Shown here: positions 15,497 to 44,943 of the stretch, piece by piece
Position numbering within the stretch: the stretch's first letter is position 1
Layout: the number at the start of each line of letters is the position of its first letter
Assembly (NCBI GenBank): GCA_026393975.1
Contig: JAPKZD010000007.1
Coordinates: 1 to 60,760, forward strand
Reading direction: 5' to 3'
Source: Candidatus Aminicenantota bacterium
GTDB taxonomy: Bacteria > Acidobacteriota > Aminicenantia > Aminicenantales > Saccharicenantaceae
DNA: 60,760 bases
Program-made: the position numbers and the translations under genes
The notes under the pieces: generated by a model
Seen by the model: only the letters and a program-made list of their open reading frames with translations
Told to the model about the DNA's origin: nothing
Databases searched by the model: none

Positions 15497-15628
15497 ATTC
15501 CTGATTCCGCTCCATTATACGTCAACCGCCGCCTCCCCGTTCAAGCCTTCCGGAATCGTTAAGAAATTAAAGATCCCCCCACCCGGCCGAGAGGTCAGCC
15601 TCCGCGTGTAGGGATAACGGCAAAGTGC

Positions 15629-15970
15629 GATGCCTGGAGGAGGCCGCCGAATAATGGGGTCGAGGGTATCGTCGGAGGGAGCGGCGGGGAGCGGAGTCTT
15701 CGTAGCGACCAGCAGAATTGTAGCGGAGTACCCGGAGCTACAATTCTGGTAAATATCTGAAAAGAAATTTCTTTCCTGGACTTGCTTAAGATATTTCCTA
15801 GAAGTGCGGCTCCGGGTACTTCGCCGCACTTCTATCGGTCGCTCCCCAGAGTCCGCTCCCTGCCGCTCCTCCCATCGGATCCGGCCCGGGAAGGCGTAAA
15901 AATCACCGCAGCGGACGGAGACGATACCAGAGGCCCCTTCGCGGCCGACGGAGCGGCGCGCCCCAAGCCT
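15629..15970 (+). repeat. Structured intergenic repeat, copy A, carrying a palindromic insert
   Basis: This occupies most of the 507-base gap between the gene at 14870-15496 and lepA. Its two ends (about 15629-15681 and 15867-15970) match the copies at 24848-25145 and, inverted, 33721-33876. Shared strings include gatgcctgg-type starts, ctcctcccatcg and aatcaccgcagcg. Where the other copies have about 42 bases, this copy has a roughly 186-base palindromic block. I see no gene in the gap. Confidence 0.8.
15689..15858. repeat. 170-bp near-palindrome with two covarying hairpins
   Basis: Arms 15689-15758 and 15789-15858 are inverted copies (54 of 70 positions) around a 30-base centre that itself holds the palindrome aaagaaatttcttt. 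Each arm contains a perfect 10-bp hairpin: 15714-15723 with 15738-15747, and 15800-15809 with 15824-15833. The two stems differ at three base pairs, and in each case both partners have changed so that pairing is kept. The 14-base loops are complementary at 13 positions. Weaker symmetry continues outward to about 15673 and 15875. Confidence 0.85.
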
Positions 15971-16003
15971 GCACGTTAGTAAACGGAAGCTGACCCCCGA
16001 GGC

Positions 16004-24607: not shown

Positions 24608-24694
24608 TGGTGCGGAAGGAGGGACTCGAACCCTCAAGGCCTTACGGCCATAAACTCCTGAGGCTTACGCGTCTGCCAATTCCGCCACTTCCGC
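24608..24694 (-). tRNA. tRNA-Leu (anticodon CAG)
   Basis: An 87-base class II tRNA read leftward, with acceptor stem GCGGAAG pairing with CTTCCGC, an encoded CCA, T-loop GGTTCGAGTCC, a long variable arm (GGCCGTAAGGCC) and an anticodon stem TAAGC/GTTTA. The seven-base loop is CTCAGGA, so positions 34-36 read CAG, decoding CUG. Confidence 0.95.
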
Positions 24695-24738: not shown

Positions 24739-24847
24739 GAAGGGTGGCCCTCATGCCTATCAGGTTCCGGAGCACCGTGGCGACGGCGACCGCCTAACCC
24801 AAGGGCCGAGGGATTGGCTTCTGTCAGTAACGTCAAGGAAGCAGAGG

Positions 24848-25145
24848 CGATGCCCGGATAAGGCCGCTGGATAAAGGGGTTGAGGGTGTCGTCGAAGGAA
24901 GCATAAAGCGGTGATTTAGCCGTCACGGGCCGGATACGCGGACTCCTCCCATCGAATCCGGTCCGGGAGGGCGTGAAGAATAAACCCATTCGACTCCCCG
25001 GCCTGAAGGCCGGGGTATGCTCAGGGTTAATACTGAGCACCACCCGCCCCGTTTTAAAAATGCGAGGTGGATGGTGTCGAACGTATCACCGCAGCGAACA
25101 GAGACGATGCCCGAGGCCCCAAAGCGGCCGGCGGAGCGGTACGCC
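24848..25145 (+). repeat. Structured intergenic repeat, copy B, interrupted by a second repeat
   Basis: Most of the 604-base gap between tRNA-Leu and the baeRF gene. The segment 24848-24982 closely matches copy C (33721-33876, inverted), including a run cggatacgcggactcctccc. The stem gcggtgatt at 24908-24916 should pair with atcaccgc, which is displaced to about 25085 by an insert of roughly 105 bases. The remainder matches the end of copy A (gcgaac, gagacgatgcc, aggcccc). No gene is apparent here. Confidence 0.78.
24983..25034 (+). repeat. Second dispersed hairpin repeat (insert in copy B)
   Basis: It matches 37431-37482 on the opposite strand at about 41 of 52 positions (acccattcg, ctgaag, gctcagggttaa). 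It contains the hairpin ccccggcc-tgaa-ggccgggg, and just beyond it tgctcag/ctgagca. Confidence 0.7.
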
Positions 25146-25191
25146 CCGAGCTAAGTGAACTTGAAAAAAGAAGCCTATCCTGAGGCCGCTC

Positions 25192-33672: not shown

Positions 33673-33720
33673 GCGCAAGGAGTATATACCATTTTACGTC
33701 GGCCGCGGAGGGCCCTCGAG

Positions 33721-33876
33721 GGTCATCTTCGTTCGCTGCAGTGATTCTTCACGCCTTCCCGATCCGGATTCGATGGGAGGAGTCCGCGTATCCGTCCCGG
33801 GAAGTCTAAATCACTGCTTTATGCTCACTCTGATGACCCCCTCGGACCCAAAATTAGCGGCCTCCTTCAGGCATCC
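33721..33876 (-). repeat. Structured intergenic repeat, copy C
   Basis: The least disturbed copy of the family, in reverse orientation, between the divergent symporter and lolA genes. On its own strand the stem gcagtgatt/aatcactgc encloses smaller symmetric parts. The equivalent stem in copy B reads gcggtgatt/atcaccgc, so both sides have changed together. Confidence 0.8.
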
Positions 33877-44592: not shown

Positions 44593-44943
44593 TGGTGGAG
44601 GCGGCGGGAATCGAACCCGCGTCCGAAAGCATTCAACAGCAAGTCTCTACACGCTTATCCCCTTCATTGATCTCGTCGCCCGGCGCTCGAAGAGGAAAAG
44701 CACCGGGAAACCAGCCCCGAAGGAGTTTCGCTCCCCGGCCTCAGGACGAAACCGGCTCGCTATCCCGCCCGGTTGACGCTCCGGAAGCCCCGCGGGAGAG
44801 GACTCCAGGAACGGCGTGCCTTTCTATTAGGCCGCGACTGCTAAAGGTTCTGCAGTTAAGGTTTTTCCACCGTTTAGCGAGGTGGGTGGGACCTCGGCGT
44901 GCAACTTGTGCCTCATTACTTCCGTCGAAACCAGTACGCCCCC
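44593..44943 (-). ncRNA. ssrA: Transfer-messenger RNA (ssrA)
   Basis: A 351-base tmRNA read leftward. The 5' end GGGGGCGTACTGGTTTCGAC and the 3' end with GGTTCGATTCC, CGCCTCC and an encoded ACCA form the tRNA-like domain. A reading segment of the form NGGKTLTAEPLAVAA, ended by TAA TAG, gives the proteolysis tag; the resume codon just before it is uncertain. The typical hydrophobic LAVAA-type end is present. It rescues ribosomes stalled on broken messages. Confidence 0.95.

Follow-up and report, generated by a model that had tools for sequence, protein, structure and literature searches.

REPINs are inverted pairs of REP sequences (Bertels and Rainey 2011, PMC3116915), and the REPs of E. coli need conserved stem mismatches together with fold-specific recognition by TnpA-REP (PMC8266576). 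The CGTC-tagged REPs are palindromic and occur mostly as head-to-head dimers, with no associated transposase and alongside unrelated Y1 genes in the same genomes (PMC3733652). A literature search on palindromic repeats in Aminicenantes gave nothing on point. The window analysed here, a stretch of 60,760 nt from the genome of a Candidatus Aminicenantota bacterium (2.95 Mb in 25 contigs), contains a large palindrome at 15678-15869, which in our assessment is probably a REP/REPIN-like non-autonomous element, that is, an inverted pair of a unit here called ARM, set into the tip of a second repeat, CORE, and spread as folded single-stranded DNA.

The palindrome consists of two inverted copies of this unit of about 80 nt, the left one at 15682-15761 on the plus strand (99.2 bits with the covariance model R1) and the right one at 15786-15865 on the minus strand (100.2 bits with R1). 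The inverted arms as a whole (15678-15761 and 15786-15869) are 84 nt long, 79% complementary and separated by 24 nt between the ARM tails (15762-15785), the gaps of other pairs being 10-13 or 24-25 nt. The original prediction had placed the arms at 15689-15758 and 15789-15858; they were confirmed, in a palindrome that extends further on both sides. Each ARM is made of two hairpins and a GTAAATATCTGAA tail. Hairpin 2 (left copy 15713-15748, plus strand; right copy 15799-15834, minus strand, from its perfect stem and pairing counts) has a 12-bp stem, a GGA/GGA internal loop, a G:C pair and a small loop. Its perfect 12-bp stems in the window pair 15713-15724 with 15737-15748 and 15799-15810 with 15823-15834 and read, in common sense, CAGAATTGTAGC vs TAGAAGTGCGGC. 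They differ at four of the 12 base pairs, three of these in the inner 10 bp, and the partner base in the same arm compensates for every change. The predicted hairpins with three compensated differences are thus present, the 10 bp first described being the inner part of a 12-bp stem. Likewise, 11 of the 12 loop positions are complementary, close to the near-complementarity claimed for the loops, which are 12 rather than 14 nt long; this follows simply from conservation of the loop sequence in the inverted copy. The smaller hairpin 1, which had escaped the earlier description, is found in every ARM. In the left copy it lies at 15687-15710 on the plus strand, with the form GG-(GA/GA)-GC-(GRA/GNA)-N:N'-UCUN loop, a covarying pair with 78 double changes and near-invariant G.A mismatches; in the right copy it lies at 15837-15860 on the minus strand, from the R1 match and pairing counts. 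The fold of the palindrome is far better than that of shuffled sequences (z of -9.8 as RNA and -9.4 as DNA, with 0 of 200 shuffles as good).

CORE is a longer dispersed hairpin repeat of the form GTCGTC GGAGGAAGC ATAAA GCGGTGATT .. AATCACCGC AGCGGACGGA GACGAC, with GTCGTC at its base and a tip that is variable and covarying, and the G.A motif seen in ARM is present twice at its base. Its left part lies at 15637-15682 (plus strand, with boundaries from BLAST over many copies) and its right part (CTCCTCCCATCGGATCCGG..GGCGT..AATCACCGCAGCGGACGGAGACGATACC) at 15866-15959 (plus strand, from BLAST boundaries and the CORE structure), the inverted ARM pair standing in place of about 42 nt of the tip. 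The intergenic stretch, used as a query, gave 73 matches in its own genome, which include six near-full composites of about 290 bp at about 92% identity, about 20 single arms and many surrounding repeats without arms. The insertion into a dispersed repeat that had been proposed is therefore real, though those 42 nt or so of the repeat are missing at the junction. The window holds two further CORE copies, one without ARM (33697-33875, minus strand) and one interrupted by a different insert of about 110 nt (24804-25151, plus strand); this insert (AAACCCATTCGACTCCCCGGCCTGAAGGCCGGGG..) forms a GC-rich hairpin of its own. In L017 (728-977) and L009 (3884-3979) CORE varies in having a large tip of another kind, GTTTCAGGGGAAACCGCCAAAACGTGTTTGAG..GTTGTTTTGGCGCCGAG. 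The tmRNA gene at 44593-44943 and the tRNA gene at 24611-24694, both found with Rfam on the minus strand of the window, are ordinary.

Besides CORE, two other hairpins host ARMs: the CCCCCGTAGCGGAGGGGGACC repeat and, in a number of species, GAAGGGGTCAAACCTA..TAGGTTTGACCCCTTCTT. In G008 and G012, versions of the latter flank Y1 transposase genes. The flanks of solo ARMs show a tendency, and no more than that, to pair with each other (10 of 61 fall below the 5th percentile of mismatched flanks); no such tendency was found for the flanks of ARM pairs, and these flanks are in part common to several copies. Another abundant hairpin repeat, the third, is GGGGACATGTACC..GGTACATGTCCCC; it often adjoins ARMs (L011 756-800, L025 600-660, L044 1324-1352) and in L044 also adjoins a Y1 gene.

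With the covariance model, ARM was found in the assembled sequence of all 13 genomes of the window's genus at 2-114 copies each, with 35 copies in the window's own genome and 53 in that of its closest relative, G004, which is about 96% complete. Among 94 genomes of the order, matches outside the genus were limited to a weak one and to two from a genome that is 7% contaminated. A degenerate exact pattern compared with 84,980 species genomes returned 93 stretches, all in MAGs of Aminicenantes or 'Acidobacteria', and no exact ARM match was found in viral contigs. ARM is specific to this genus of Acidobacteriota (Candidatus Aminicenantes) and occurs essentially nowhere else. The named genomes are all MAGs, in which some loci have N gaps; in G004, runs of 100 N stand at the repeat-bearing gaps of L236 and L238, where further copies may be hidden.

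The position of the repeats changes between close relatives. The stretch 15537-15993 (boundaries approximate) is absent from the lepA-flanking gap of G004, and this gap in G011 contains a different mosaic of about 200 bp; as G011 is more distantly related than G004, the difference may equally be due to loss in G004 or to gain in the window genome (G000). At other loci the same gap in G004 or G011 holds nothing or a different hairpin repeat. The original prediction had pointed to empty sites as something to look for, and sites that are empty or differently filled do exist in the relatives. Among the orthologous sites compared, replacement was as frequent as an empty site and no clean insertion with a target duplication was seen; at the lepA site a short C run lies at both ends, which could be a target duplication or deletion homology, and the compared sites are replacements or imprecise.

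According to a simple codon-usage gene caller, whose calls are approximate, 74 of 80 elements lie clear of all called genes, despite a coding fraction of about 81%. Solo ARMs account for 51 of the 80 elements, and all 27 two-unit inverted pairs are arranged head-out, with their GGCAGGG ends outward, and none tail-out. The arms of the pairs in G002 form two lineages, with identities of 0.92 and 0.84 within and 0.66 between them, compared with 0.74 among solos (n=5), figures which are descriptive given that the split was chosen to maximise within-class identity and that the comparison of solos with pairs covered few genomes. Because the pair lineages of G002 are each more uniform than the solos, the ARM pair appears to spread as a unit.

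Over 132 distinct ARM copies, in an alignment that was fitted to the covariance model and is hence biased towards the structure, the stem cells are paired in 95.8% of cases vs 82.7% when shuffled, double changes are seen at 13 of the 18 pairs, and covariation reaches a score of 0.348, against 0.121 for shuffled and at most 0.084 for slid alignments; the main stem is also predicted independently of the model, from a MAFFT alignment. G.A pairs, which the motif suggests are sheared, make up the internal loops, with GA/GA and GRA/GNA in hairpin 1 and GGA/GGA in hairpin 2. At the outer positions of these loops A.G and G.A persist in about 96-99% of copies (9/27 as A.G in 128/129, 12/24 as G.A in 125/130, 14/22 as A.G in 124/129 and 50/58 as A.G in 130/132), and the middle base is variable. 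In 28 copies the 48:60 position of hairpin 2 is C:G, U:A or U:G, and in all 28 of them 49/59 is then G.A and 50/58 A.G, a swap that turns the 3x3 loop into one pair and a tandem G.A; in hairpin 1, 17 copies have a C:G/G.A form instead of G:C/G:C. Since the stems stay paired, the mismatches are near-invariant and pair and mismatch swap together, ARM is under selection as a folded single strand, and the mending of imperfect palindromes does not account for it. Conservation acts on the fold of the individual arm and not on the large palindrome: in G002 the identity between the two arms of a pair is down to about 66%, while ARM's own stem is about 96% paired overall. The selection on structure that had been proposed from the two window arms is borne out by covariation, kept mismatches and coordinated swaps, and the covariance-model search of related genomes, also proposed at that time, brought many more homologues with further covariation. 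In the ARM stem G-U outnumbers A-C by 33 to 14 (17 to 7 among 54 less related copies), an excess that points to one strand as the folded strand and fits RNA and single-stranded DNA alike.

The compensated changes could be mutational in origin, template switching or quasipalindrome correction keeping the stems perfect while the repeat decays, as such events are expected in palindromes and the mosaic replacements at orthologous sites would suit them. However, correction would erase the very mismatches at the four G.A/A.G positions that ARM keeps in about 96-99% of copies, and these positions change mainly by coordinated swaps that correction can hardly explain; the loops and the tail are conserved as well, and the long-range palindrome formed by the two arms, on which correction could act just as well, has not been maintained (about 66% in G002), which makes this explanation very unlikely. 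Covariation and conserved non-Watson-Crick loops are also typical of RNA, and with the G-U excess on one strand and the intergenic location they could indicate a structured RNA, either a small RNA or an mRNA-borne protein-binding site, that is dispersed by a mobile carrier and kept for regulation. We regard this as unlikely, since DNA hairpins tolerate G.T as well, no Rfam match above the curated threshold lies in or near the repeat, copy number varies from 2 to 114 between species and orthologous gaps hold different elements. Moreover, solo ARMs in tandem context run with the neighbouring genes in 12 cases and against them in 7, a strand preference that is not significant, and of the intergenic elements 52 have both neighbouring genes called, comprising 27 tandem, 14 convergent and 11 divergent cases. 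Rfam microRNA matches below the threshold look like chance matches of a long hairpin. The mobile structured DNA of the original prediction is thus favoured, and the small RNA that it gave as the other option finds little support, with no Rfam match, no significant strand preference and all gene orientations represented. It is highly improbable that the hairpins serve gene expression as transcription terminators or mRNA-stabilising REP-type structures: convergent contexts, at 27% (14/52) vs 18% of all gaps, would speak for it, but most contexts are tandem or divergent, termination needs no conserved loops or mismatches, and the elements at the same gap differ between species.

In regard to a carrier enzyme, Y1_Tnp genes are present in 10 of the 13 genomes of the genus and were undetected in G004, G005 and G010. 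None of the 25 Y1 loci of the genus has ARM or CORE in the surrounding DNA (up to 1.5 kb on each side); they carry their own, different hairpins, and a RAYT as the linked partner of ARM was rejected because the RAYT-flanking hairpins are different sequences. In L043 (854-920/1935-2001), L071 (929-996/2014-2081) and L068 (182-243/1283-1344), Y1 genes of the RAYT type stand between long inverted hairpins that are specific to the species, a layout similar to that of the TIR-flanked transposases reported for Acidobacteria (PMC3733652). Reverse transcriptase was rejected as a carrier, its genes being rare or absent, as were an IS110 transposase, present only once in the genus, and TnpB, the Cas12f1-like/TnpB zinc-ribbon gene PF07282 being found in 0 of 13 genus genomes, a count that also bears on an IS200/IS605 or TnpB/omega-RNA origin. 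The scan of nine neighbour genes of ARMs for an autonomous element found no transposase among them. The carrier has perhaps been lost in some species, and perhaps acts in trans. These results also bear on whether ARM is the long terminal inverted repeat of a MITE from an ordinary DDE transposon, which the head-out inverted pairs and the roughly 290-bp composites, about 92% alike, would resemble. The scarcity of IS110 and absence of TnpB-type genes argue against it, as does the lack of any gene-bearing element with ARM ends, the single gene found between two nearby ARMs coding for an SRP54 GTPase; over half of the elements are single ARMs, the compared sites have no established target duplication, and constrained folded hairpins inside the arm would be unusual for DDE ends, so that we consider this origin quite unlikely.

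In the REPIN-like reading that we prefer, the mobile unit would be a head-out inverted ARM pair or a solo ARM, non-autonomous, whose single strand would fold into two hairpins. A protein acting in trans may then recognise ARM by the sheared G.A internal loops, the small loops and the 3' tail, and would move or copy it from one intergenic site to another, in many cases to the tip of another hairpin. The folded strand is probably DNA, recognised, by analogy with known systems, by a putative HUH/Y1-like nuclease or transposase, and solo ARMs may be remnants of pairs or alternatives to them. Against the REPIN-like reading stand the lack of a cognate enzyme, of a conserved GTAG head and of a clean insertion with target duplication. 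A rather doubtful extension is that ARM and CORE form a class of mobile structured elements with tandem sheared G.A specificity, settling in hairpin tips and moved by a single-strand-specific enzyme other than RAYT. ARM is a REP-like repeat from a lineage in which genetics on cultured members is scarce or absent, and because its shape is measurably constrained down to non-Watson-Crick pairs, the recognised features can be read from the sequence itself. It suggests that a REPIN-like population can persist genus-wide even where no cognate RAYT is detectable, and that repeats of this kind nest in each other, a point relevant to the site choice of REP-type elements.

Compared with RAYT-linked REPs and REPINs, ARM lacks a linked Y1 gene flanked by the same repeat and a GTAG head, GTAG at the hairpin foot not being conserved in 34 aligned copies and occurring as a variant in some only; because these two defining features are missing, we do not assign ARM to a named family. 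ARM may also resemble the attC sites of integrons, long imperfect hairpins that are kept by structure over sequence, with conserved unpaired bases, and are used as folded single strands; unlike these, ARMs lie outside cassette arrays. With the CGTC-tagged REPs ARM shares its dimers without a linked enzyme and the unrelated Y1 genes in the genome, whereas its hairpin 2 has 12 bp and an internal loop and no CGTC tag, compared with a stem of 8-9 bp and a loop of 4-5 nt (PMC3733652). Like the E. coli-type (group 2) REPs, it appears to be a folded, strand-specific single strand with conserved stem mismatches, which are essential for recognition there (PMC8266576); it differs in its mismatch motif of sheared GNA/GNA and GA/GA, its greater length, and in having no GTAG and no cognate enzyme. 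ARM is a unit of about 80 nt with two hairpins where the REP is short, and is nested in other hairpin repeats, unlike REPINs (PMC3116915). As in REPINs (PMC3116915), however, ARM is a short, high-copy palindromic repeat, intergenic, with no gene inside and species- or genus-specific, and its inverted pairs, with their short spacer, fold as one hairpin and are more uniform than the singles: ARM works like a REPIN.
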